From the NCBI RefSeq assembly GCF_024498175.1, contig NZ_CP101823.1:1178001-1242000 (forward strand): 64,000 bases of DNA, written 5' to 3'. Positions 14,773-60,998 of the stretch are shown piece after piece. Position numbers and translations under genes: made by a program. Below the pieces are notes generated by a model that had not been told where the DNA came from, made no database searches, and saw only the letters and a program-made list of their open reading frames with translations. Source of the DNA: Haloplanus salinarum (lineage in GTDB: Archaea > Halobacteriota > Halobacteria > Halobacteriales > Haloferacaceae). Each line of letters begins with the position of its first letter. The first letter of the stretch is position 1.

Positions 14773-16449
14773 CTACCCGATCCCAGTTTCCTTCTTCAAC
14801 AGCGTCAGCGTGTTGTCCGCTGTAATCAGCGGTGAGTGCTCATACTCGCCGGTCAACTCAACCTGCACGAGCAGATCGACCGCTCGCCAGATAGAGTACA
14901 GCAGACACGCAAACGCGAAGTAGAAGAATCGAAGCCCGAAATCCTTCGACGTCGTCGCTGCCATGAACCGTTTGATCGACCTGTACCCACTCTCGATCTC
15001 CCAGCGATAGCCATACTCCGTGAGGTGCCCACTCCCGCAATTCGTCATGAACACCGAGTACTGCCGGTGATCGTCGTGCTCGGAGTCTTCATTCCGGCGG
15101 TAGACCAGCGTCGTTTCGTGCCACTCGTTCTTGCCCAGATGGAGCTTCCGGTCGGTTTCATACCGGTCTTGGTCCCGCTGGAGTAATCGCTTGGCTTGGG
15201 CTTTCTCGCTGGTCTGCATCCGCTTCGGCACGACATACGACAAGCCACGCTGGCTAAGCATCTCCAGGACGTGCTGACTATCGAACTCCCGGTCCATCAG
15301 CACGTTATCGACGTGGACGAGCTCTTCAGCCGAATCCAGCAAATCCCCGACGATCTCCTTACGTGACTCGCCTTTCCGTACCGGGCGGGCATCAAGCACG
15401 AGTGGGATAGCGTTGCCGACCAACTGGACTGTCGCCCATTGGTAGGCGTACTCGTCGGTCTTCTCCTTCGTCCCGATGATTTCGTCTTCGTGGCCCGTTC
15501 TATCACCGGTGAAGGGGTTGGCCTCGGTGATATCGATGGCGATGATTCCGGCTCGGAAGAACTCCTCTGTCTCCTCGACTTCGCTCAGGAGCGTGTTGAC
15601 GGCCTGTCGGTACATCTCGCGAGTCTCTGATACCGAGAGATTACGAATCTGCTCGCGATGGGCGTGACCTAACGGCGTCCGCTCTCGAGTTGACTCGTAG
15701 GTGAAGCTACGAGCACCTTCGTTCGCAGCCAGCCGCTCACGAAGTCCGAGATACGTCTGCAGGTCCCAGTACGCGTTCTCGTGGATCTCACAGCCCTCAC
15801 CTCGATCCAGCGAAAACGCCGGGAAAAGGACGCGACTGACGTGGTCGGTGACTTTCTCTGCCTGCTCCAACGTAGTTTGATCATCCGGGTCTGACTCACC
15901 AGACTCGTCCCCGTGGTATCGGAGCTTTCGTGTCGGTTCACGCGGAGTCTCGACACCCGCATTCTGGGCTTTGATGAGGATCGTTCGAGCGGCTGTCTCC
16001 ACTGTCTCTCGGAGGTCAGGGATGAACCGCTCGTGCCAGCTTCGCCACAGTGTCGACTGGTCCGGGATCGTCTCGAAACCCAGTTGCTCACAGAGTTCAG
16101 GACGGTTCTTTAGGTAGTCGACGAGTGCTGTTTCGTGCTCCCAGCTGTGGAGTTCTTTCAGTACGAACACCCGAAAGAGGGTGTCCATCTGGTAGCGGGT
16201 CGGCCCCGCATACCGGTCGTGGGCGCTGAACCGGAAGTAGGCCAAGGGGAGTGCACAGACGAACCCCTCGACGGAGTCGTGACTTTCATGTTCGAACCAC
16301 GTCTCTGAGACTGTCCGGATATCGGATTCCAGTCCGGCGAGTGACGTTCGATCGTACAGGGGTGTCGAATTATACGCCGGCCACTCACCGTATTGTCGTT
16401 GGGCGATCCGTCGAAAGACGGTTCGGCGAGACACAGGAGTCGAACACAC
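14773..16449 (-). CDS. IS4-family DDE transposase, intact
   Basis: 558 residues from GTG 16449. Catalytic residues are visible: first Asp in GIIAIDITEANPFTGD (about residue 297), second Asp in VLMDREFDS (about 374), and the IS4 signature YGYRWEIESGYRSIK, which fits Y-2-R-3-E-6-K exactly and carries the catalytic Glu. The N-terminal ~250 residues carry helical DNA-binding sequence. The gene is uninterrupted, so the element could be active. A second copy at 62817-64000, on the other strand, is closely similar over its first ~390 residues but not identical. Named ISH group not determined. Confidence 0.85.
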   Translation of the reverse strand: MCSTPVSRRTVFRRIAQRQYGEWPAYNSTPLYDRTSLAGLESDIRTVSETWFEHESHDSVEGFVCALPLAYFRFSAHDRYAGPTRYQMDTLFRVFVLKELHSWEHETALVDYLKNRPELCEQLGFETIPDQSTLWRSWHERFIPDLRETVETAARTILIKAQNAGVETPREPTRKLRYHGDESGESDPDDQTTLEQAEKVTDHVSRVLFPAFSLDRGEGCEIHENAYWDLQTYLGLRERLAANEGARSFTYESTRERTPLGHAHREQIRNLSVSETREMYRQAVNTLLSEVEETEEFFRAGIIAIDITEANPFTGDRTGHEDEIIGTKEKTDEYAYQWATVQLVGNAIPLVLDARPVRKGESRKEIVGDLLDSAEELVHVDNVLMDREFDSQHVLEMLSQRGLSYVVPKRMQTSEKAQAKRLLQRDQDRYETDRKLHLGKNEWHETTLVYRRNEDSEHDDHRQYSVFMTNCGSGHLTEYGYRWEIESGYRSIKRFMAATTSKDFGLRFFYFAFACLLYSIWRAVDLLVQVELTGEYEHSPLITADNTLTLLKKETGIG

Positions 16450-16740: not shown

Positions 16741-18078
16741 GTGCAGTCGTCCACACTCACCCAAATCTTGTCGTTCCGCTTAGACATCCACACGGGGAGT
16801 GGCGACGACCTGCAAACGGGCTGTCTTGAGGCCCGCCGCATCCGCAACGAAACCAACCGCCTCGACCGACAGGGCTGGAACTGGGATGACATCAAACCGG
16901 CCGTCGTTGACAACGCCGATCACGTCAACAACACTAGCCAACTCATCGTTGACAAGGCACTCGGTGAAATCGAGACCCACCACGACAACAAAGACGACGA
17001 CTGGGGCCGTCCATACCCATACATCGACGGGGTGTACCCGATGGTGATGAACCACGGCGAAGGCTACCGTCTGTTCCCCGAAGACCACGGGACGGTTCGA
17101 TTCCGTATCACTGCCACGAGAGGCACGCACGTCAAAGGCGAACTTCGTGGCAGTCCCGACCACTTCGACCGCCTCAGAACTGCGTTCACCGATGAGGAGT
17201 GGCGGGTTGGAACGGCTGAAGTCGTCCACAAGCACGATGAGTGGCGACTCCACCTCACAGTTACACACGAGACGCATCGAGTCGCCAGCAAGCACGATGC
17301 AGACACGATCGTCGGTGTGGATGTGAACGAGGACTGCATCGCACTCGCTGCGATGAGTCGGAGTGGTTCGATGAAAGACTCCGTGGTGTTCGAGTACCCG
17401 TCGGTGAAAGAACAGCGTCACGAGTTTTTCACCAAGCGCAAGCGGATGCAGAAAGCCAACCAGACCGCGTTTGAGACGGTCGTTCAGACTGAGGAACGCG
17501 ACTACGTGCATGACTGCCTGCACAAAGTCTCACGGAGAGTAGTCGAATGGGTCTCGCAATTCACCGACCCAGTGATCGTTTTTGAAGACCTCAAAGACAT
17601 GCGAGACTCCATCGACTACGGTACGCGAATGAACCGTCGCCTCCACTCGCTGCCGTTCGCTACACTCCAAGACATGGTGTCGTACAAGGCTGCGTGGGAG
17701 GGGATTCCGTCGGATGAGGTTGATCCTGAGTACACGAGTCAGCGATGCCCGCGAACGGAGTGCCAGCACACGGAACGGGCGAATCGCCAGAACAAGCGAT
17801 TCAAATGCCAGCAGTGTGGGTTCCAAGACCACGCTGATAGGAAGGCGGCGGTGTGCGTGGTGCAGAACTGGTTGGAACGAGAAACTGGAAATGTGCCGTC
17901 TCTCGAAACCCTTCCGCGCGTTCGGAAGGTGAGACGGGCGGCATCGGGCCGTGGTGGAGCGGCCGACTCTCACGGACCCATATCGGGTTCGGGTGTTACC
18001 GACGACGGTATGTCGGCGCGACCAGCGATGGGAGCGCGAGAGGAATTAAAGTCCGTTGCGTCAGCAATGCAGGACTAA
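16741..18078 (+). CDS. tnpB: TnpB RNA-guided nuclease of an IS200/IS605-type element
   Basis: 445 residues from GTG. The RuvC-like catalytic residues are present: Asp in IVGVDVNEDCIALAA (about residue 200), Glu in VIVFEDLKDMRD (about 282) and Asp in DHADRKAAVCV (about 365). A zinc ribbon (CPRTEC and CQQC) lies between the last two. The usual DxNAA reads DRKAA here, an uncommon substitution of Asn by Lys. A ~70-residue tail follows the nuclease core. TnpB uses a right-end-derived omega RNA as guide to cut DNA, which helps the element persist. An AT-rich TATA-like stretch ending near 16714 lies about 30 nt upstream of the start. Confidence 0.88.
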   Translation: MQSSTLTQILSFRLDIHTGSGDDLQTGCLEARRIRNETNRLDRQGWNWDDIKPAVVDNADHVNNTSQLIVDKALGEIETHHDNKDDDWGRPYPYIDGVYPMVMNHGEGYRLFPEDHGTVRFRITATRGTHVKGELRGSPDHFDRLRTAFTDEEWRVGTAEVVHKHDEWRLHLTVTHETHRVASKHDADTIVGVDVNEDCIALAAMSRSGSMKDSVVFEYPSVKEQRHEFFTKRKRMQKANQTAFETVVQTEERDYVHDCLHKVSRRVVEWVSQFTDPVIVFEDLKDMRDSIDYGTRMNRRLHSLPFATLQDMVSYKAAWEGIPSDEVDPEYTSQRCPRTECQHTERANRQNKRFKCQQCGFQDHADRKAAVCVVQNWLERETGNVPSLETLPRVRKVRRAASGRGGAADSHGPISGSGVTDDGMSARPAMGAREELKSVASAMQD

Positions 18079-19184: not shown

Positions 19185-20410
19185 TCACTCAAGCGAGGAA
19201 TCGACCGACGCCTGAGGGAGATGCAATACAACACGTGTTCCACGCGGCGAGTTGTTCTCGAGTGTGACTTCGCCCCCGAACAGCGACCCAGTCCAGTACA
19301 CAATCCACAGTCCGAGGCCAGTCCCATGTTGCATCGGGGTTTCCACCCCTGTTTCGATCGTTTTTTGCTCATGATCTGGGATGCTCGGTCCGTTATCCGC
19401 AATCTCGATGTCGATCCACTGGCCGGTTCGATCGCCAGTTGATTGCCTGGTCGTAACCGTCGCCTCGGGAGTGGGCTGGTCGTTGTGGGTGATCGCGTCT
19501 TCTAGGAGTTCTGTGAGCGCTATTTTCAACCGACTATCTGCTTTAGCGTGAACGGAATCCGATTCGCCGGTCGTGAGTGTGGCGTCAGGATACGTGTCGG
19601 AAAATTCGTCGACGACTTCGGTCAGAAGCTGAGTCACGTCGCAGGCAGTCTCGGTTGGTGATCCAGTGCCGAACAGTGAACGCACAGTCCCGGCTTGATC
19701 ACTCATACGGATTGCGCTAACTGTTTACCGCGACGACCGCCCGACTGCGGGCGGTCGACGCGGAAATGACCTAGCGCAATCCGTATCAGACTTGACAGTG
19801 CCGCTGCCAGTTCTTCGATCGCTCTCGCGTGCGGTCGGAGCTCTTCGTCGTCGAGCGCATCTCGGAGCATGGGCGCGTTGCCTTCGATGACGTTCATTCC
19901 GTTCCGGAGATTGTGGCGCAACACGCGATTGAGAACGTCGAGTTGTTGTTCGCGCAACTGCTGGTTCGTCACGTCGGATTCGATCGTGACGAAATGCGTG
20001 ATCTTTCCTGTGTCGTTCGGTATCGGCGTGATCGTCTGGTCGACATGATATAATTCCCCATTTTTCCGGCGATTCACGAGATGGGCATCCCACTGGTCGC
20101 CTGCGAGAATCGTTTCCCACATCCGGTCGTAGAACACTTCGTCCTGTTTGCCTGATTTAAGAATGCGGGGTGTTCGACCAACAGCTTCCGAACGTGTATA
20201 GCCAGACCGGGCTTCGAACATCGGATTCACGTACTCTATCGTGCCCTCTCTGTCGGTAATGAACACGGCATGTCCCGCGTTCTCGACAGCCTTCCTGAAC
20301 AGCTGCAAGTCCTGCTCGTGTTCTTTACGCTCAGAGATGTCTTCCTGAAACCCGACGTAATTCGTGACGGTTCCAGTGTCGTCTCTCACCGGGGCGATGC
20401 TGACTGTCGA
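19185..20410 (-). pseudogene. Sensor histidine kinase remnant, split by a palindromic element
   Basis: Reading from 20410 down: the end of a PAS domain (VSIAPVRDDTGTVTNYVGFQ), a second PAS domain with the LOV-like GRTPRILKSGKQDEVFYD, then an H box VLNRVLRHNLRNGMNVIEG. At 19789 an 88-bp palindromic element interrupts the frame. The ATPase domain resumes at 19701 with SDQAGTVRSLFGTG and later IADNGPSIPDHE and HGTGLGLWIV. Excising the element with one base joins the two halves in frame. The 5' end is also lost and replaced by unrelated sequence upstream of about 20410. The ATPase half can start at an ATG (19706) partly supplied by the element edge. Confidence 0.8.
19702..19789 (-). repeat. 88-bp palindromic element, copy 1 (inside a histidine kinase gene)
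   Basis: Read on the minus strand it runs CTG-ATACGGATTGCGCTA ... TAGCGCAATCCGTAT-GAG with 15-bp perfect terminal inverted repeats, a middle stem (TTTCCGCG / CGCGGTAAA) and a central GACCGCCC / GGGCGGTC hairpin. The core is 82 bp. Copies 2-4 share the architecture and the CTG/GAG edges but differ in stem sequence with compensating changes. Confidence 0.85.
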
Positions 20411-20678
20411 GTTTGTACCAGTTCTTCTCCAGCTTCCAGAACGGGAGGGTGTCGGTGACGAGGTCAAGCTCGCCAACGGCTTCGGCTGGATCGAAGCCCT
20501 GGTTCAGGTAGGCCTGAAGTTGCTCCGAGATGGATGCCATCGGCCACATCTTTGCGTGTAGCAGCTCGAAACCAAGTATCAGGAGTGCCTTCGAGTTATC
20601 AGGAAACTCTGCCGCCAGCTCGGGATTCGACGAAAAGTCGAGATCGATAGATCCAAACTCCTGTAGAGGATTCGGCAC
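20331..20678 (-). CDS. Unrecognised ORF, chimeric at its 3' end
   Basis: 115 codons from GTG 20678. A TATA box (TATTTATAA, 20706-20714) sits 28 nt upstream, as expected for a leaderless transcript. The first ~90 residues (MPNPLQEFGSIDLDFSS to LPFWKLEKNWYKL) are acidic, soluble and not recognised. The last ~25 residues are out-of-frame kinase sequence. An unknown gene therefore appears to have been joined to the truncated histidine kinase at about 20405. Confidence 0.35.
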   Translation of the reverse strand: MPNPLQEFGSIDLDFSSNPELAAEFPDNSKALLILGFELLHAKMWPMASISEQLQAYLNQGFDPAEAVGELDLVTDTLPFWKLEKNWYKLDSQHRPGERRHWNRHELRRVSGRHL

Positions 20679-20703
20679 GCTTCTGGGACGTTACTGCTGT
20701 ATA

Positions 20704-20715
20704 GGTTATAAATAG
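20704..20715 (-). promoter_or_regulatory. TATA box for the 20678 start
   Basis: TATTTATAA on the minus strand ends 28 nt before the GTG at 20678. Distance and sequence fit haloarchaeal leaderless promoters. Confidence 0.45.
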
Positions 20716-20721
20716 CAGGTG

Positions 20722-20838
20722 TCACTTATCATCCATCCCGACTTCACCCTCCGCACCGTAGTACCGCGATAGGCTCCGGTATTGGGCTTCTTCCTGGTCG
20801 TCGCTGGCATCGTACTCGTCGGCACAACCTATTCGTTA
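20722..20838 (-). pseudogene. C-terminal fragment of an acidic protein
   Basis: A 38-codon frame closes with CADEYDASDDQEEAQYRSLS then RYYGAEGEVGMDDK and a stop. The composition is that of a real haloarchaeal protein tail, but the frame has a stop just upstream and no start. It lies 18 bp after the CapB stop and may be what remains of a third capsule gene or of an unrelated neighbour. Confidence 0.3.
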
Positions 20839-20856
20839 ATGAGCGGTAATAGAGTT

Positions 20857-22053
20857 CTACGTCGGTTTGATAGATTCGGGCGCTTCCTGTTCCTGAGTAC
20901 GTACAACCTCCTCGAACTCACGCATGAACTCATCGACGGTGTTTCCCATGATGACGACAGGCTCGCCCTCTGCAAGAAGATCGGTCAGCACAGTCTCGGC
21001 GTCGCTTCCTTTGTCGTGTCGGATGACCGGCAGCTCGGTATTCTCAGCGAACGCACGCGTATTGGCCCCACCAACGTGGGCTTCATTGACGTGGCCTTGG
21101 TCGTAGAGGAGGTCAACGTACTCTGCGAACGAGGCGGTTCGACCCCGCCGGTCTCGGCGGAGATAGACGAACGGGAGTATCTGTTCATCTTCCGAAACGA
21201 GTGCCTGACGGACCATCTCCGTGCTCTCGACGTCGTTCACTTGTGCTGCGTTGAACACACGACCGTCAGGAAGTCGGGTCCACTCCGGCTGAATCGCGTC
21301 CAAAAACGCTTCGAGTTCACCGTCAGGGAGCGGCGATTCGTCGAGAAACGACAGAACCGCGTCGATCGCGTGCGCAGTCTCTGCCCCGATCATCCCCTCG
21401 TGCCGGTCGGGAATCACGACCTGCTCGATGGTGCCCCCTCGGCGTTCGATCTCCTCTCGCATGTAGTCGTGGAGAACAGGGTGTTGTTCCCCACTAATGA
21501 CGTGTGTCCCGGCGGAGACCGACCGCGCGAATGATCGGGCGATATTGGTCCGCGTCTTGCCAAGCGTGTCATTGTGATCCTGCCGGACGTTGGTGAGAAT
21601 GACGATGTCCGGATTGATCAGTTGCTGATTGATAAGCCGCGTCGTGTACTCGGTGATGCCCTGATTTTCGAAGATGCCGATATCCTCGGCGGCATAGGCA
21701 TCGAGTTCCGGAGCGAACTCCCCGATTACGCTGATGTTCTCGTACAGCGTCGTCCGAGGGCCCCGACGTTCGATGGGGTGAACCTCGCCGTTGTGGATGA
21801 GTGTCGGATGGTTCCCGGTGATCTTCGTCAGGGTATCGTAGCCGCGGCGATTGAACACGTCGTCGAGGCGGCGAGTCGTCGATGTCTTGCCACGGCTCCC
21901 CGCGACGGCAATGCGAGTGTCCAGGCGTCGGAGTGCCTTGCGGTGACGGAACCCTCGTGTTAACTCTTTAATGATACCGGTCAGACTCGGCTTCCCGACC
22001 TCGATAGACCGTGGTCCGTCCCGCCACTCGTATTCGGCACCGACCATGAACAT
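20857..22053 (-). CDS. capB: CapB/PgsB-type Mur-ligase fold enzyme (poly-gamma-glutamate synthase)
   Basis: 398 residues from ATG 22053 (MFMVGAEYEW); the frame is open further upstream but that part is not conserved-looking. The P-loop IAVAGSRGKTSTTRRL lies at about residues 47-62, followed by TKITGNHPTLIHNG, ENQGITEYTTRLINQQ and VILTNVRQDHNDTLGKT. These stretches match the CapB/PgsB group of ATP-dependent amide ligases, which polymerise glutamate at the membrane. The context is a CapC/PgsC membrane protein upstream. The overlap of about 70 nt with the preceding gene leaves the exact start open; GTG/ATG alternatives lie a few codons downstream. No CapA/PgsA is present. Confidence 0.8.
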   Translation of the reverse strand: MFMVGAEYEWRDGPRSIEVGKPSLTGIIKELTRGFRHRKALRRLDTRIAVAGSRGKTSTTRRLDDVFNRRGYDTLTKITGNHPTLIHNGEVHPIERRGPRTTLYENISVIGEFAPELDAYAAEDIGIFENQGITEYTTRLINQQLINPDIVILTNVRQDHNDTLGKTRTNIARSFARSVSAGTHVISGEQHPVLHDYMREEIERRGGTIEQVVIPDRHEGMIGAETAHAIDAVLSFLDESPLPDGELEAFLDAIQPEWTRLPDGRVFNAAQVNDVESTEMVRQALVSEDEQILPFVYLRRDRRGRTASFAEYVDLLYDQGHVNEAHVGGANTRAFAENTELPVIRHDKGSDAETVLTDLLAEGEPVVIMGNTVDEFMREFEEVVRTQEQEAPESIKPT

Positions 22054-22445
22054 GGGGAGGGCCCCGCGGCCCGCTCCAGGAACCGATCCAACGCATGCCT
22101 GGCATCGCTTTCGGTCGGGAACCGGTCTGCGCTGTTGGCGAGGGTGCGCTCGGGTGTCTGCAATTGCCACACCCAATTGTTCCGATCCTGTGGAAGGTCG
22201 CCAGTAGGCGTCGGGTCTTCTCTGACGATCGTTGCCGGGTCGCTGATATCCTCGCTTTCGAACGCCTCTTCATCACCGGTGAGCGAGGCAACTGCTCCTC
22301 GAACTTGGTCGACAGCCTGTCGGGCCTCTCGTGATGTATCGTAGTGATGGCCGCCGGTCGCTACCACGCGTTCCTGAACGCGAAGTCGCCATGACCACCC
22401 AAACCCACGTCCGTATATCTCGTAGGCAGTCGTGTACGTGCTCAT
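21981..22445 (-). CDS. Small repeat protein (YegP/DUF1508-like) inside the capsule cluster
   Basis: 154 residues. Two similar units are visible: GFGWSWRLRVQERVVATGGH ending in SREARQAVDQV, and NNWVWQLQTPERTLANSADR ending in ESDARHALDRF. Each has the W-x-L/W-R, A-x-S/G and (E/D)AR pattern of DUF1508/YegP beta-alpha repeats, whose function is unknown. Its ATG overlaps the capC stop by four bases (ATGA), so it belongs to the capC-capB operon. Its last ~30 codons overlap the start of capB and look non-conserved; the gene may in fact end or shift frame there. Confidence 0.6.
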   Translation of the reverse strand: MSTYTTAYEIYGRGFGWSWRLRVQERVVATGGHHYDTSREARQAVDQVRGAVASLTGDEEAFESEDISDPATIVREDPTPTGDLPQDRNNWVWQLQTPERTLANSADRFPTESDARHALDRFLERAAGPSPCSWSVPNTSGGTDHGLSRSGSRV

Positions 22446-23605
22446 GAGTCACCCTCCGAAAGAACGGACGCAGACAGTACCTCAGTCTCATCAGGTTGGG
22501 CGACCGCATACCGGCGTCCGAGTCCCAGACCTACCAACAGAAGGAGTATACCTGTCAGTATCACAGGCAGCGTGAGTTCTTGTGGGATACCCTTCGGTTC
22601 CGGTGTGGCGAACACCCGTGCGACGAGCAACACTGGAACGAACACAACGGCCTGGAGTGGTAGTACCAGCCGCCGCTCGAATGGCCCTGTCACGTGAGCG
22701 TTATATGCAATTATGCCACCGAGGAACGCGACAAAAAAGGCAGACAATCCACGATCAATCGGGAACAACAGTGTGAGTGGAACTGCCATGAGAACCGCAA
22801 ACGCGATAGTGGTTCCAAGGAGCACCCTGCCATACCGCAGTGTTGCGTGGTTCGCTGCCTGGACAAAGCCAAACGCAAGGACGAACAAAACCACGTACAT
22901 CACGATGAGCCAGTAGTTCGTGAGGGCGTAGACTGCCAACAGGACAGCCGCGATGATGCCGACCCGGACGCCGAATTGCGCTCTGATGCGCTCGGATATA
23001 ATCAGACCAATTATAAAGAGACCAGCCACGACTTCCCTCGATATGACGACCGCTTCTGTTGGGATATCAACGACTGCATTATTATACACCGCGACGTCAG
23101 CGCTCGCTGCGAACAACACCGGTGGCGTCACCGTCCCATATCGGGCAGCGATTCCGGGAGAGACCAGTACAAAACCGAGAGCGAACAATGCCGTGAACAG
23201 GCCGATAGTTGCGAGTAAATCGTTCCGTCGAAACTCCGGCTTGATACTATGAAAGTTGTACGCCGCTAACCCCGGAAGAATGCTGCCGAGTAAGACGATG
23301 AGATCTGCACCAAACCCAACCTCTATGAGCCCAAGAAGCGTTACCAACGGGACTGACGTTCCAATGATCAATGCGGCGACAAATTCGCCTCGACCGTAGA
23401 TCAGGGTCCGCTGTCGAAGATACCAGAGGCCGATGTACGCTGCGATAGTACTGAGGACGAACACAGGCAACATCAGGACGTTCTTGAGCGTGTACACCGC
23501 GAGTACCGGCACGGTGATTGATCCACCAAGACGGTACCCCGTAAACTGCGTGGTCAGTGCTACGCCGAGTATCCCAACAACGGCCAACAGCGTAGCAACC
23601 CACAT
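22442..23605 (-). CDS. capC: CapC/PgsC-type integral membrane protein, double length
   Basis: 387 residues, nearly all hydrophobic (about ten membrane segments). Bacterial PgsC/CapC is about 150 residues. Here the family signature appears twice: QFTGYRLGGSITVPVLAVYT with IYGRGEFVAALIIGTSVPL in the first half, and RAQFGVRVGIIAAVLLAVYA with RYGRVLLGTTIAFAVLMAVP in the second. The protein is therefore a tandem duplication. With CapB it forms the membrane synthase that makes and exports poly-gamma-glutamate. It is the first gene of the cluster. Start at ATG 23605 opens with a membrane helix. Confidence 0.75.
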   Translation of the reverse strand: MWVATLLAVVGILGVALTTQFTGYRLGGSITVPVLAVYTLKNVLMLPVFVLSTIAAYIGLWYLRQRTLIYGRGEFVAALIIGTSVPLVTLLGLIEVGFGADLIVLLGSILPGLAAYNFHSIKPEFRRNDLLATIGLFTALFALGFVLVSPGIAARYGTVTPPVLFAASADVAVYNNAVVDIPTEAVVISREVVAGLFIIGLIISERIRAQFGVRVGIIAAVLLAVYALTNYWLIVMYVVLFVLAFGFVQAANHATLRYGRVLLGTTIAFAVLMAVPLTLLFPIDRGLSAFFVAFLGGIIAYNAHVTGPFERRLVLPLQAVVFVPVLLVARVFATPEPKGIPQELTLPVILTGILLLLVGLGLGRRYAVAQPDETEVLSASVLSEGDS

Positions 23606-23666
23606 TACAAAAAGAAACGAGACTGATACCTAAAGGTCCACGCATATGAACGACTACTACTCGACA

Positions 23667-23751
23667 CTCATACTGTCGGCTGTAACATCTTGAAACTAAT
23701 TCGCCACCGGGGTGGCGAATAGTTTTAGGTACTTACAGCCGAGAGTATCAG
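23667..23751 (-). repeat. Palindromic element, copy 4 (85 bp)
   Basis: Minus-strand reading: CTG-ATACTCTCGGCTGTAA ... TTACAGCCGACAGTAT-GAG, with a central TTCGCCACC / GGTGGCGAA hairpin and the same three-stem plan as copies 1-3, but almost entirely different stem sequence. Its left edge supplies the TGA stop of the response regulator gene at 23748-24128. Confidence 0.75.
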
Positions 23752-24128
23752 ACTGCGTCGAGAACGACCTCGATTCGGCCCACAAGTTCGGCTTCGGAAA
23801 AGGGCTTTGCCACAAAATCGTCAGCACCGGCGTCGAGTGCTTGCACGATATCTTCCTCCCGGTTGCGGGACGTCAACATGACAACTGGCAGATCCACGAG
23901 TGCGTCGTGATCCCGGATACGTTCGAGGACGGAAAGGCCATCGAGTTCGGGCATCATTACGTCTAACACCACGAGATCTGGTGGATCGCTGGTCCGTGAT
24001 CCGAGATGCTCCCAACACGCATCACCATCTGTGAACGCCACCACGTCCCATCCGTTGTCAGTCAGGTTGAATTCGACGGCTTCCCGGGTCGTCTCATCGT
24101 CCTCCGCAATGACTATTTCGGCGGTCAT
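23748..24128 (-). CDS. Single-domain response regulator (receiver)
   Basis: 126 residues, one REC domain. The acidic pair (AEDDE, about residues 8-12), the phospho-acceptor Asp in LVVLDVMMPELDG (about 55), the Thr/Ser switch in VVMLTSRN and the Lys in VAKPFSEAE (about 109) are all present. There is no output domain, so it acts as a phospho-relay or on a protein partner. Its start is 48 bp after the histidine kinase stop, so the two are probably a cognate pair on one transcript. The stop codon is formed by the edge of a palindromic element, and a few native C-terminal residues may be missing. Confidence 0.9.
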   Translation of the reverse strand: MTAEIVIAEDDETTREAVEFNLTDNGWDVVAFTDGDACWEHLGSRTSDPPDLVVLDVMMPELDGLSVLERIRDHDALVDLPVVMLTSRNREEDIVQALDAGADDFVAKPFSEAELVGRIEVVLDAV

Positions 24129-24176
24129 GTGTGTCTCCTATCCACATGTTGTCGCGGCGACGCTTGGTTCCACGGG

Positions 24177-26210
24177 TCATTCGCTCCGTTCACCAGTTCG
24201 GATTTCGATGCGTGCTCCCTGATCTGTGGCGGGGACTAAGAGGTCCCACCCGTGTGCTTCCACGACATCGATAACGCTCATGAGTCCGATTCCAATCCCC
24301 GACATCTCGTCCGTGTCTCCGAGTGCTTCGATCTCCGTCCGTTGCTTCTCGGAAAACCCTGGCCCGTCATCGGCGACGTAGAACCCCCCCTCGTCAGCGA
24401 GGGGGCCAACTTCCACGGTAACGTCGTCGCCGCCGTGTTCGACGCTGTTGCGGAAGAGATTGCCGAACAGTTGCAGCAGTCGTGTCTCATCGGCCTGTAT
24501 CTCACCGAGCGGGTCGTCTGCGGACAAGGACGCTTTCGGGGCGTCGGTGTATGACCACGCCTCCTCCACGATTGGTTGTAATTGGTGGGTGCGTATGTTG
24601 ATTGCCTGGCGATCACCGCGGGCGATCATTAGCAACTCGTCGATGAGTTCCTCCATTCGGTCCAGGGACTGTTCGACGCGCTCGAAATGCTGTGACTCGT
24701 TCGTTTTGCGGGCGATTTCGAGAAAGCCGACCGCTCCCGTCATTGGGTTTCGGAGGTCGTGTGCCACGACGTCGGCAAACTCTTCGAGGCGGTCGTTCTG
24801 TCGCTGGAGTGCTTCACCACGCTCGGCTAGCTGTTCTTCGCGCTTGACTGCGGTTATAGCCTCCGTGACCAACGCTTCAAGCAGTCGGAGGCTTTCGATG
24901 TCAATCTCGTCGAACGCACGTGGCTCGGTCGCAGAACTCGTGATGATGCCCTGATTCCCGCAGGGAACGTGGACCTCTGACCGCAATGGCGTCTCCGGAT
25001 TGTAGGTTTCTGGTTGTTCGGTCAGGTCCTCGTAGTACCGGATTTTGCCACTATCGAAACTCTCCCAAATGAGTGCGTCACCTCGCTCGAACGTCGGGGC
25101 CTCCCCAACGACCCGTACTGCTTCGTCTGTTTCGGCCACCGCGCGTAACACGTCTTCGGTGGCATCGTACTCCCAAAACGCACTCACCGGGAGATTGAGC
25201 AACTCGACGACCATCTCCATCGTGATCTGTGCGACGTCCGTCGTCGTTTCAGCCGTCAGCAACCGCTGTGATACTTCGTGCAGACTTTCCAGGCGATCTT
25301 CGAACCGCTGCCGTTCGAGTTCGTACCCGGCCCACTGTCCAAGTAGCTTGATCACCTCCCGTTCGCCGGCGTTGAATTCCCGGTCACGGTCGTGTGGGGC
25401 CGCAAAGCAGAACGTCCCATAGAGGTTCTCTCCGACCATGACCTTCGTTCCGATATAGCAGCCTAAGTCGAACAGTTCGTACGCCGAGTCGTCTTCGCCC
25501 AACTCCGCTCGTGCGTCCTGCATACCAACTAGGTCGTCGCTTTGGATGGTTTTCCGGCAGTACGACTGTTCCAGCGGTGCGGTTTCGTCTGGCTGGAGCA
25601 GTGTATGATCGCCAACAGCGTGTACAATCTCTTGTGTGTCTTCCTCTATTTTCGACAGGAACCCAAAGGGCAGATCCAGGTACTTACACCCAATAGAGAG
25701 GATGCGCTCGGCTTTTTGTTCGAACGTGAGAGCGTCCTCTGCACCAACTTGATAGAGTTTGGCCAGCACCTCCTGTTTTTGTTCTGCCGCCCGGGCCCTT
25801 CGCTCGCGCTCTGTCACATCCCGGACCACGCCGACGATATCGTCAGTGCCGTCGTCCCGGATATGTTTCGAGACGCGAACGTCTACCATCTGTTCGGTTT
25901 CCTGACCAATTTCGAAGGTCAGGATTTCATCCTGGATTTCTCCGTCGGCAATGGAGTTGATGGTCGTAACGAATCGCTCAAACTCGGCGGATTCAACCAG
26001 TCCTGATTCAACCAGCGTGTCGAACGTGTTGCCAACCAGTTCGTTCCGCTCACGTCCAGTCAACGAGCAAAGCGAGTCGTTGACGTAGGTGATGGTACCG
26101 TCCAGATTGACGACGAACACACCGTCCCGCACCGCTTCGATGATGGATCTATAGGGTCTGGTGCTCTCTTCGTAATCCCCCGAAGCACCATTATGGGGGC
26201 CTGTGTCCAT
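24177..26210 (-). CDS. Soluble sensor histidine kinase (PAS-GAF-GAF-HisKA-HATPase)
   Basis: 677 residues. PAS at about 15-135 (IIEAVRDGVFVVNLDGTITY), GAF at about 165-305 (LYGTFCFAAPHDRDREF), a second GAF-like region at about 310-465, the H box FADVVAHDLRNPMTGAVGF at about 485-503, N box QLFGNLFRNSVEHGG at about 590-604 and G1 YVADDGPGFSEK at about 618-629. No membrane helix is seen, so it senses a cytoplasmic signal. The first GAF holds several Cys/His residues (KYLDLPFG, SYCRKT, LGCYIG). It is followed by a receiver protein on the same strand. Full length and apparently intact. Confidence 0.9.
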   Translation of the reverse strand: MDTGPHNGASGDYEESTRPYRSIIEAVRDGVFVVNLDGTITYVNDSLCSLTGRERNELVGNTFDTLVESGLVESAEFERFVTTINSIADGEIQDEILTFEIGQETEQMVDVRVSKHIRDDGTDDIVGVVRDVTERERRARAAEQKQEVLAKLYQVGAEDALTFEQKAERILSIGCKYLDLPFGFLSKIEEDTQEIVHAVGDHTLLQPDETAPLEQSYCRKTIQSDDLVGMQDARAELGEDDSAYELFDLGCYIGTKVMVGENLYGTFCFAAPHDRDREFNAGEREVIKLLGQWAGYELERQRFEDRLESLHEVSQRLLTAETTTDVAQITMEMVVELLNLPVSAFWEYDATEDVLRAVAETDEAVRVVGEAPTFERGDALIWESFDSGKIRYYEDLTEQPETYNPETPLRSEVHVPCGNQGIITSSATEPRAFDEIDIESLRLLEALVTEAITAVKREEQLAERGEALQRQNDRLEEFADVVAHDLRNPMTGAVGFLEIARKTNESQHFERVEQSLDRMEELIDELLMIARGDRQAINIRTHQLQPIVEEAWSYTDAPKASLSADDPLGEIQADETRLLQLFGNLFRNSVEHGGDDVTVEVGPLADEGGFYVADDGPGFSEKQRTEIEALGDTDEMSGIGIGLMSVIDVVEAHGWDLLVPATDQGARIEIRTGERSE

Positions 26211-26485
26211 GTTTACCTGTCACACTAATTCAGGATAGATGTTTTGTTCCACGGACCGCAACCTCGTGAAGAGGGATTGCTGAACAGAGCTTCACACGAT
26301 TATGCAGCAGTGGTCGGTGCCACCACTCTATTGATACCAGAGACAGCGTGGTGTCTTCAGAGTGTAGATTGTGCAGGAGCTATTCCGGCAACAAAAAGGC
26401 TCGAGGACGTACCAACTATTTAAACGAGGGGGCCTTCCCGCCCAAACGAAATTTCTGCTCAGAGCACTCTTACCGTCTTGATGAG

Positions 26486-26932
26486 TCAGTTAACGTTGAT
26501 AATCTCGATATCGAACTCAAGCGTCTCGCCTGCGAGTGGGCTGTTGAAATCCACTTCAACAACATCATCACCAACGTCCGTGACTTCGCCCTGGTTACCG
26601 TCCTGCGTCTCAAGGTACGCACCTTCCTCGGGGAGGTCGCCATCAAGCATCTGGCGAAGCTCTGCGGTTTCGAACTCTCGAACCTGCTTTTCGGCCCACT
26701 CGCCATAGCCCTTCTCTGGAGGAATCGCAACTGTGGGGGTAGCCCCTTGCTCTAACCCGCTTAGGGCCTCCTCCAATCCGCCAAGGATCCGACCTGCGCC
26801 GACTTCCACCGTTATTGACTGGTATTCCCGATCAGGCTGTGAATCAGCTAATCCTGTTTCTCTAGCTACTGATTCGCGCGTTGTATCGAAGACGACTCCA
26901 TCGTCGGTTCGTCCTGTGTACTCAATTTCCAC
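26486..26932 (-). CDS. FKBP/SlyD-type peptidyl-prolyl isomerase, trimmed at the N-terminus
   Basis: 148 residues from GTG 26932. VEIEYTGRTDDGVVFDTTRE, VGAGRILGGLEEALSGLEQG and PEKGYGEWAEKQVREFETAE are the FKBP core with an insert-in-flap domain, as in SlyD-like archaeal FKBPs. Family members normally have about eight residues before the EYTG strand; here the frame begins immediately at the edge of palindromic element copy 2, whose last base is the G of the GTG start. The insertion probably removed or replaced the native start and promoter. A folding helper in the cytoplasm if expressed. Confidence 0.85.
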   Translation of the reverse strand: MEIEYTGRTDDGVVFDTTRESVARETGLADSQPDREYQSITVEVGAGRILGGLEEALSGLEQGATPTVAIPPEKGYGEWAEKQVREFETAELRQMLDGDLPEEGAYLETQDGNQGEVTDVGDDVVEVDFNSPLAGETLEFDIEIINVN

Positions 26933-27019
26933 TGATACGGATTATTCCAAGACATTTCGGGATCGACCGCACGATTGCATGCGGTCGACCCGGTAAACGC
27001 TTGCAATAATCCGTATGAG
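26932..27019 (+). repeat. Palindromic element, copy 2 (88 bp, 5' of the FKBP gene)
   Basis: CTG-ATACGGATTATTCCAA ... AATAATCCGTAT-GAG. Terminal inverted repeat of 12 bp, middle stem TTTCGGG / CCCGGTAAA, central GACCGCA / TGCGGTC hairpin. 82-bp core, the same length as copies 1 and 3. Confidence 0.85.
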
Positions 27020-27128
27020 TCGCCAGTAGTGATTGTCGCGTGTGTATAATGTACGACAGGCGCAAAAGGCCTTGGATCGTGGGGATTGTGACCGAGTACG
27101 GATTCGCAGCGTCCAATCGGCGTCTTCC

Positions 27129-27216
27129 CTGATAGTGTTTATTGTAGCGATTTACCGGTACGACCGCACGAAAGCGTGCGGTCGATCCGGAACAGACCTA
27201 CAATAATCACTATGAG
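27129..27216 (+). repeat. Palindromic element, copy 3 (88 bp)
   Basis: CTG-ATAGTGTTTATTGTA ... TACAATAATCACTAT-GAG. The outer stem differs from copies 1 and 2 but stays largely paired. Middle stem ACCGG / CCGG; central GACCGCACG / CGTGCGGTC hairpin with an AAAG loop. Lies 109 bp from copy 2 in the same orientation. Confidence 0.85.
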
Positions 27217-27586: not shown

Positions 27587-28981
27587 TCACGTGTTGCAAT
27601 AAGTTGTGTACTCTGAATCAAATTTTTCTGAAGGCGGTTGTTGAAATTGTGAATTCGCATCTTTCGATTCATAAGGATTTTCCAAGACATTCAATAAATC
27701 CTTAAATTTAGAGAGATTTTCTTTTTCTAGATACTCATTCAGTGTCTCTTCTATCAAGTAGTTGCGGGGAATATAACGGGGATTAGTTTTCTTCATCATC
27801 TTCCCATCCAAGCCGATACCAGATAATTCATCCCGGATATGTTTGAAATCTTCAGATGAATAGACTGGGTCATCAAAGGAGCCAGGAGTTTCTAATTCTA
27901 TGAATGTATTCGTGTAGTCTGCTCTAGATTCACGAAGCCAGTCTAAGAATGCATCTACTATTGCTTCCTCTCCGTCTGATTTGATCCCTAGTTTCTTTCT
28001 CATCATACTATAGTATTTAGCATCAAATATTTCTTCAAAATTGTCTAGCTTGGCTTCTAGTTCATCAAAAGCGTGAGATGATTCTTGAAAAAGCTGTTGT
28101 AGGGATTCTGCGAAACGTCCAAGATTCCATTTCAAAATAGGTTTTTGATTCCCGAAAGAGTATCTACCTCTTTTGTCCACAGAGCTGAAGACAGCATCTT
28201 CGTCGTAATAATTCATGAATGTACATGGTCCGTAATCAAATGTTTCCCCATCTATACTCATGTTGTCTGTATTCATGACGCCGTGTATGAATCCTACACG
28301 CATCCAGTCAACTACCATATCTATAGAAGATCGCATAACTTCATCAAAAAAATCTGTGTATTTTTTATCCTTGTTATTCAAGTGAGGATAGTGCCTGTCG
28401 ATTACATAATCAGTGAATTCCTCAAGTTCTTCGGATGCTTGACTTGCCACATATTGGAAAGTGCCGTATCTAATGTGGCTTCTCATCACTCTTACAAGGA
28501 TGGCTCCGGGTTCTGTTCTACGTCTCTGAACTGATTCGTCGGTCTCGATTACTGCCAGACTCCTAGATGTTTTTATACCAAGATTTTTCATCGCGTATGA
28601 GTAAATATACTCTCTGAGCATGGAACTAACAGTTGCGTTCCCATCGCCTCTTCCTGAGTAAGGGGTTCTCCCAGAGCCTTTCAGTTGAATATCATATCTA
28701 CTACCGTCGTGCACATGTTCGCCTAGTATCATCGCTCTTCCGTCGCCAAGTACAGTATAATTTCCAAATTGATGTCCTGCATATGCTTGAGCAATCGGTT
28801 CTTCCAGAAGTTTTTGCCCTGAAAGAATCTGACTGTTCAAATCCTCTTTATTTAATCCAAGGCCATCACACAAATCTTCATTAAGAAGTAAAATCTCCGG
28901 ATTATTGATATCTTCAGGCGTCACTCTCGAATAGAGGTTGGAGTCCAAATCTTTGTACGTTGTGTCAAAGGAAAGGGACAT
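27587..28981 (-). CDS. selO: SelO/YdiU-family protein (pseudokinase-fold AMP transferase), AT-rich
   Basis: 464 residues. AQAYAGHQFGNYTVLGDGRA, YDIQLKGSGRTPYSGRGDGN (with the Lys of the nucleotide site) and GVMNTDNMSIDGETFDYGPC (metal-binding Asn and Asp) are SelO hallmarks. SelO transfers AMP from ATP to protein Ser/Thr/Tyr and is linked to redox stress. The C-terminus ends YTTYCNT with the family cysteine near the end. Codon use is strikingly AT-rich (many AAA, ATA, TTT, AGA) and unlike every neighbour, so recent transfer from a low-GC donor is likely. A TATA-like box lies about 30 nt upstream. The gene is intact. Confidence 0.92.
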   Translation of the reverse strand: MSLSFDTTYKDLDSNLYSRVTPEDINNPEILLLNEDLCDGLGLNKEDLNSQILSGQKLLEEPIAQAYAGHQFGNYTVLGDGRAMILGEHVHDGSRYDIQLKGSGRTPYSGRGDGNATVSSMLREYIYSYAMKNLGIKTSRSLAVIETDESVQRRRTEPGAILVRVMRSHIRYGTFQYVASQASEELEEFTDYVIDRHYPHLNNKDKKYTDFFDEVMRSSIDMVVDWMRVGFIHGVMNTDNMSIDGETFDYGPCTFMNYYDEDAVFSSVDKRGRYSFGNQKPILKWNLGRFAESLQQLFQESSHAFDELEAKLDNFEEIFDAKYYSMMRKKLGIKSDGEEAIVDAFLDWLRESRADYTNTFIELETPGSFDDPVYSSEDFKHIRDELSGIGLDGKMMKKTNPRYIPRNYLIEETLNEYLEKENLSKFKDLLNVLENPYESKDANSQFQQPPSEKFDSEYTTYCNT

Positions 28982-60609: not shown

Positions 60610-60998
60610 ACGTACGAGTACGTGAGAAGTCACGATAAACGAAGGGGGAGATTCTCTACCCGGAGGAATCACTCACCGTTGCTAGGTCAGAAATGCGCTG
60701 CATGAGACCGGTTGATGAGTCATTTCAGTTTTCTTCCGAGCAACAATTCCAACGCGTATGCATTGAGAGCCCCAGTCTCAACTTCTGATGGTGCCCAGAA
60801 GTTGAGACCGGCCGTCTCAATGCATAGCTGGTAGTGAGTGAACGAATCGGTTGTGTGAATACTGTTCTCTGCCGAGCGAAAGCGTAGCTACAACCACGTG
60901 ACTGAGAAACCGGCACAACCGCTTAATGCGCGTCGTATGACGACACCAAGAGTCTGATAATAACAGTCCTTATCTCCTATCCCGAACGATATAGTATT
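60610..60998. other. Gene-free region with a long nested hairpin
   Basis: 389 bp without a supported gene. It contains a 70-bp nested palindrome (60757-60826, listed separately). The part before 60999 is AT-rich and probably holds the promoter of the membrane protein gene. A 63-codon minus-strand frame through the hairpin is discarded. Confidence 0.5.
60757..60826. repeat. 70-bp nested palindrome (two 12-bp stems)
   Basis: Outer stem TATGCATTGAGA (60757-60768) pairs perfectly with TCTCAATGCATA (60815-60826). Inner stem GTCTCAACTTCT (60775-60786) pairs perfectly with AGAAGTTGAGAC (60797-60808) around a 10-nt loop. GAGA/TCTC recurs in both stems. Too long and well paired for a terminator; resembles a MITE or a structured RNA. 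Confidence 0.75.

Follow-up and report, generated by a model that had tools for sequence, protein, structure and literature searches.

An apparently undescribed family of gene-less mobile hairpins of about 80 bases in haloarchaea

The small mobile repeats (SMRs) of Haloquadratum walsbyi (HqIRS40-43 and 55) are gene-less elements of 80 to ~110 bp with inverted repeats, present in up to 54 copies, whose insertions are strain-specific and whose mobiliser has been called "enigmatic" (PMC3119063). They have been reported without target duplication, and SMR-A is reported to insert into palindromes of IS605-type elements (PMC3119063). The palindrome-associated elements of IS605-type transposons (PATEs) are also haloarchaeal, gene-less and palindromic; their palindromes are near-terminal, and they have neither terminal inverted repeats nor a target duplication (PMC3119063). 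REPINs, which belong to the REP-RAYT system, consist of inverted conserved arms around a variable, hairpin-forming spacer, show compensatory changes, and are extragenic and parentless (PMC3116915), and GTAG REPs often supply a stop codon (PMC3733652). Bacterial MITEs such as RUP, Correia/NEMIS and ERIC are dispersed elements of ~80-150 bp with TA-ended terminal inverted repeats, a target duplication and stable hairpins (PMC2229807, PMC10969869).

Here we describe a family of mobile hairpins in haloarchaea of which we found no description in the open-licence papers searched, and we give the anatomy, target and distribution of what is a very abundant repeat of a whole archaeal order. Compared by description rather than by sequence, the SMRs come closest to it in host group and in size, being haloarchaeal and gene-less with prominent inverted repeats and a size range (80-110 bp) close to the 77-78-bp and 107-108-bp cores of a sister family. 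The palindrome family differs from them in having a 3-bp duplication and empty sites, and in inserting into CTSAG, mostly at gene stops (PMC3119063). REPINs and bacterial MITEs are its best functional analogues (PMC3116915, PMC2229807, PMC10969869). It shares the above traits of REPINs, and with some REPs the supply of stop codons (PMC3733652), but it has a 3-bp target duplication, lacks a RAYT/Y1 association, carries an arm motif unrelated to the GTAG/CGTC tags of REPs and is seen in Halobacteriales only. From bacterial MITEs, which it resembles in size, ends, duplication, hairpins and dispersal, it is set apart by a parent IS that was not found, a fixed 80-bp length, a TGA/TCA duplication, and covarying stems with an obligatory mismatch bubble. 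Unlike those of PATE/IS605 elements, its inverted repeats reach the ends, and it occurs in both orientations (12:11).

The window, a stretch of 64,000 nucleotides from Haloplanus salinarum that was analysed as a whole, contains four copies. An earlier reading of the sequence alone had proposed four structured palindromes here, and they were found where it had placed them: the pattern CTGATA-N62..92-TATGAG has exactly four matches in the window, against 0.06 expected from shuffles, and these are the four copies. They coincide with I1, I2, I3 and I5, four of the window's five longest close inverted repeats. A tRNA search found none. In window positions, the features are as follows:

19185-20476, reverse strand: histidine-kinase gene, split by copy 1
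19703-20476 and 19185-19706, reverse strand: parts of the broken kinase gene (PAS/HisKA and HATPase, respectively)
19706-19785, reverse strand: copy 1 core, 80 bp, TACGG...CCGTA
19703-19705 and 19786-19788: 3-bp direct repeats of copy 1, TCA and TCA (TGA on the element strand)
23671-23747, reverse strand: copy 2 core, 77 bp, sister family TACTNTCGGCTGTAAGT
23668-23670 and 23748-23750: direct repeats of copy 2, TCA and TCA
26936-27015, forward strand: copy 3 core, 80 bp, intergenic
26933-26935 and 27016-27018: direct repeats of copy 3, TGA and TGA
27133-27212, forward strand: copy 4 core, 80 bp, TAGTG...CACTA
27130-27132 and 27213-27215: direct repeats of copy 4, TGA and TGA

At the place equivalent to copy 1, a related intact kinase gene (locus L034) runs uninterrupted across CTGAGTGA. 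The copy 2 repeat at 23748-23750 is the stop codon of a response-regulator gene (23748-24128, reverse strand). Copy 3 lies upstream of an FKBP-type isomerase gene (26486-26932, reverse strand), and copy 4 is intergenic, with the FKBP gene on one side and a SelO gene (27587-28981, reverse strand) on the other.

All copies can be read on one strand as C-TGA-[TA...TA]-TGA-G, that is, as a core of 80 bp (77 bp in copy 2) with TA at both ends, flanked by 3-bp TGA/TCA direct repeats. The positions given by the sequence-only reading thus hold, while its cores of 82 and 79 bp shrink to 80 and 77 bp, and its CTG...GAG edges are the target CT(G/C)AG around the duplication, outside the inverted repeat. 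For copy 2, the empty site is preserved as CTCGACACTCAGACTGCG in a Halorientalis marina plasmid (L031) and as CTCAAACTGCG in a Halobellus sp. DFY28 plasmid (L032), both of which share these genes but lack the element; at this site the window has CTCGACACTCA[77 bp]TCAGACTGCG. Comparison of the L031 empty site with the window defines an element of 77-80 bp that is accompanied by a 3-bp (TCA/TGA) duplication of CTCAG/CTGAG. A second case is chromosomal copy 2740160, which is filled in the host, whereas the closest congener has just one TCAG at the orthologous site. Among the 12 homologous loci compared, which vary in alignable flank length and of which several were taken in reversed orientation, only that of the host has the element. 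The target was also recovered from 70 copies found without use of their flanks: C precedes 56 of them, the left TGA is present in 65, and G follows 43. TGA stands on both sides in 61/84 copies. The core occurs in both orientations relative to TGA (12 vs 11), which is what a symmetric DDE reaction would give.

On the host chromosome (3.45 Mb), a covariance model that uses only the core finds the family at ~95 places, a count of distinct places, the model matching both strands of a palindrome. Eight host cores are identical and stand in different flanks, so that movement is recent. Palindromes arising by chance, or ordinary terminators that do not move, retain virtually no probability as an explanation: hairpins behind stop codons do resemble terminators, but the empty sites, the target duplication, the identical dispersed copies, the two orientations and the copy within the kinase gene already refute such an origin.

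All 11 Haloplanus congeners examined have copies, with 2 to at least 78 model matches each, and model matches are usually fewer in other families of the Halobacteriales. A phylum-wide draw of 247 genomes, analysed with stricter filters, gave 14 positives, every one in the same order. A pattern scan of named genomes added Halomicrobium, Haloarcula, Halorhabdus, Halosimplex, Halobellus and several MAGs, and plasmid matches occur in Natrialba, Natrinema, Halostella, Halapricum, Halococcus and Halocatena as well. No copies were found in phage records, and the ten pattern matches in IMG/VR include no family member by the covariance model; a virus origin was rejected on these grounds.

The four window copies had been taken for one family, which is right for three of them. 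Copy 2 represents a sister family with TACTGYCGGCTGTAAGT arms that the main-family covariance model misses, and it was treated separately after a MAFFT alignment of the four copies misplaced it. The sister family has cores of 77-78 bp and 107-108 bp and the TGA/TCA repeats of the main family; it and further subfamilies are found across Halobacteriales. At five loci (L373, L374, L387, L390 and L391), cores of 107-108 bp stand beside those of 77-78 bp, a length step of 30 bp; their ends are unchanged, and the interior does not form a simple palindrome. In Halomicrobium katesii (L213, 4049-4211), two elements of different subfamilies directly adjoin with one TCA in common, as would result if one had gone into the other's duplication.

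As single-stranded DNA, the four window cores fold with z scores of -12.1, -7.1, -6.6 and -8.7, and no shuffle folds as well. Each element has two 26-bp arms with the common plan TA-SKGW-TTATTGTA-N5-TTACCGG (commonest bases in 152 elements). The 5-nt spacers of the two arms are equal in 0/152 elements; columns 16-22 form a conserved unpaired bubble, the first half of which is hardly paired, and its spacer pairs are subfamily-specific. The stems vary together. Across 23 diverse copies, 90.1% of cells are paired, against 70.4% in shuffles; the covariation score is 0.517 against 0.175 shuffled, slid controls reaching at most 0.167; and 23 of the 29 stem pairs have changed on both sides, with covariation in both the outer and inner stems. 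Within the host genome alone (61 copies), we counted 30 double changes in stems where 8.5 are expected, 28 of them Watson-Crick. The proposal that structure is kept over sequence is borne out by this significant covariation and by the bubble that is always unpaired.

Stems could also come to covary through replication. A polymerase that switches template would copy one arm onto the other, so that the stems would match without any selection on the fold. The apical loop bears a mark of such strand switching, since it is found both ways round on the same arms for four loop types in the host (GAGACGGTCC in five copies and GGACCGTCTC in two, plus three more pairs) and for one in Halomicrobium (TACTCCGTGGC and GCCACGGAGTA); the loop thus inverts independently of the arms. 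Wholesale copying would erase the bubble, however, and this is unpaired in 152/152 elements and has subfamily-specific spacer pairs, which leaves a replication artefact as an unlikely source of the matching stems.

The left TGA ends an open frame with a coding signature in 65 of the 79 copies in which it is intact (82%), while empty CTGAG sites within these stretches, taken as controls, fall 26 times at a stop, 35 times between genes and 74 times inside them; the excess is significant even against the non-coding control sites alone (Fisher p = 2e-6), counts and controls resting on heuristic gene calls. On Haloarcula hispanica and Natrialba magadii plasmids, stop codons annotated independently coincide with the TGA of the element. 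Among copies with unlike triplets, decay is seen in the right triplet of 18 and in the left triplet of 1 (p = 8e-5), as would be expected if the left triplet were a stop codon under selection. Stop-codon use is 4/8 in the eight youngest copies and 61/71 in the older ones (p = 0.03), and this lower excess in the youngest copies, although the numbers are small, favours selective retention over targeting. We infer that selection causes the stop-codon excess, which offers a reason for such repeats sitting at gene ends.

The position of copies directly after stop codons makes selection on an RNA fold possible, in which case a mobile element would have had its fold selected as a portable 3' end, be it a terminator, a processing signal or a stability hairpin. 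We regard this as unlikely. The proportion of copies that begin exactly at a stop codon goes beyond what gene avoidance predicts, it is higher among older copies, and the copies of one genome covary, all of which would suit such a role; an insertion preference or plain loss of harmful copies could nevertheless yield the same excess, the controls rest on heuristic gene calls, either strand yields the same hairpin, and Rfam covariance models gave no match at gathering score within the window. Should the elements act as portable 3'-end modules, a domesticated, host-encoded enzyme needing the arm-specific bubble would move them, they would land on TGA stops without breaking the gene, and dozens of genes per genome would gain a new structured 3' end; we consider this improbable.

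We searched for a mobiliser by scans for unpaired arms, by looking for long pairs with equal TSA repeats, by single-arm BLAST against plasmids and among genes near copies. The family has the attributes of a MITE in that it is short, non-coding and multi-copy, with terminal inverted repeats, a target duplication and empty sites, but no autonomous element sharing its ends was found in the host genome or in the loci compared elsewhere. In the host there are no unpaired arms at up to one mismatch, all such arms being parts of copies; those outside the host look like copies that are truncated or that an unrelated IS has broken (L197), and candidate autonomous parents were rejected as such. None of the 17 DDE_Tnp_1 genes of the host has family-type ends, and PF13586 gave no match. 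Integron attC-like recombination, considered because structure is kept over sequence, was left aside in view of the duplicated target triplet, no cassettes or integrase having been noticed. At the Halomicrobium katesii locus (L197, 1478-5741), an IS with GAGGGTGTCATAGAAC ends appears to lie inside a palindrome arm, flanked by TTTATTGT and TTTATTAT, and the region also has a 2.15-kb tandem partial duplication.

The inverted pair of conserved arms, the hairpin and the compensatory changes, together with an extragenic and parentless occurrence, are the architecture of REPINs (PMC3116915), and raise the question of whether a host HUH/Y1 (RAYT-like) transposase moves the folded single strand, with bubble and hairpin as recognition marks. 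Covariation, unpaired bubble and loop inversion would all fit a single-stranded stage, and the use of copies as stop codons recalls GTAG REPs (PMC3733652). We nonetheless hold such movement to be decidedly improbable. Y1_Tnp genes are absent from two congeners that have 49 and 15 model matches; none of the 30 Y1 genes in the genus has a copy within 1.5 kb, so that the Y1 gene flanked by copies that marks a RAYT is lacking; and a target-derived 3-bp duplication and insertion in both orientations are unexpected of Y1 enzymes. A Y1/RAYT mobiliser was rejected for its absence from the two congeners and for want of linkage.

The family is real, widespread and non-autonomous, and we think it likely that it consists of MITE/REPIN-like elements moved in trans by a putative transposase, probably of the DDE type. 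Two inverted arms of ~26 bp joined by a short variable hairpin, ~80 bp in total, make up one mobile element; the transposase would bind both arms and insert it either way round into CT(G/C)AG with a 3-bp stagger, leaving TGA/TCA at both ends. At a TGA stop the gene would keep its stop, and such copies would persist, with a strong hairpin now immediately following the coding sequence, while most copies that land within genes would be lost. The sequence-only reading had suggested, as an alternative to selection on a fold, a MITE family whose transposase recognises hairpins. The first part stands on the empty sites, the 3-bp duplication, ~95 dispersed copies, the identical recent copies and the lineage-specific insertion; the second gained no support, as the transposase was not found and both orientations plus duplication fit an ordinary DDE enzyme acting on duplex ends. 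Model search and empty sites, which the reading had named as its tests, gave the ~95 host copies and the unfilled targets in plasmids and the closest congener; instead of four copies with covariation at random level, covariation is far above random, and the comparisons made here showed no match to a known IS.

Several points count against movement by a DDE transposase in trans. An autonomous element with these ends was not found in the host genome or the loci compared, and the eight identical recent copies imply that a mobiliser ought to be present. The similar SMRs of Haloquadratum were reported without target duplication (PMC3119063), and the bubble and fixed length (77-80 bp, or 107-108 bp in the sister family) exceed the constraint needed for two transposase-binding ends. 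A bubble that is always mismatched, a loop that inverts freely and a position exactly on stop codons are unusual for a MITE. What moves parentless archaeal mini-elements, and whether the 3' ends of genes are rewritten, become testable questions.

The region at 20.4-26.3 kb of the window is ~90% identical to Halorientalis, Halobellus and (partly) Salinigranum plasmids. Its genes are Mur-ligase-like, PgsC/CapC-like (poly-gamma-glutamate), response-regulator and GAF/PAS kinase genes. Copy 4 has its nearest relatives, 83-92% identical, on Halapricum and Haloarcula plasmids, and resident copies elsewhere on the host chromosome are much alike. Judged from these similarities, the window copies were most likely brought in by an island of plasmid origin, and their diversity is probably due to their location on it.

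The window has further mobile-element genes. A gene for an ISH3/IS4-like DDE transposase of 558 aa (14773-16449) lies in an element at ~14.58-16.45 kb, which has nine relatives in the genome (L314-L322); their homology borders are clear (GGAAGTTGAGACTACAG), but a search of them for an ordinary terminal inverted repeat found none. A TnpB gene (RNA-guided endonuclease family) follows at 16741-18078. At 60757-60826, an unrelated palindrome of ~70 bp has AGTCTCAACTTC arms that match the end of the genome's ISH3-like IS family, and by this match it can be read as a mini-element with an identifiable parent.
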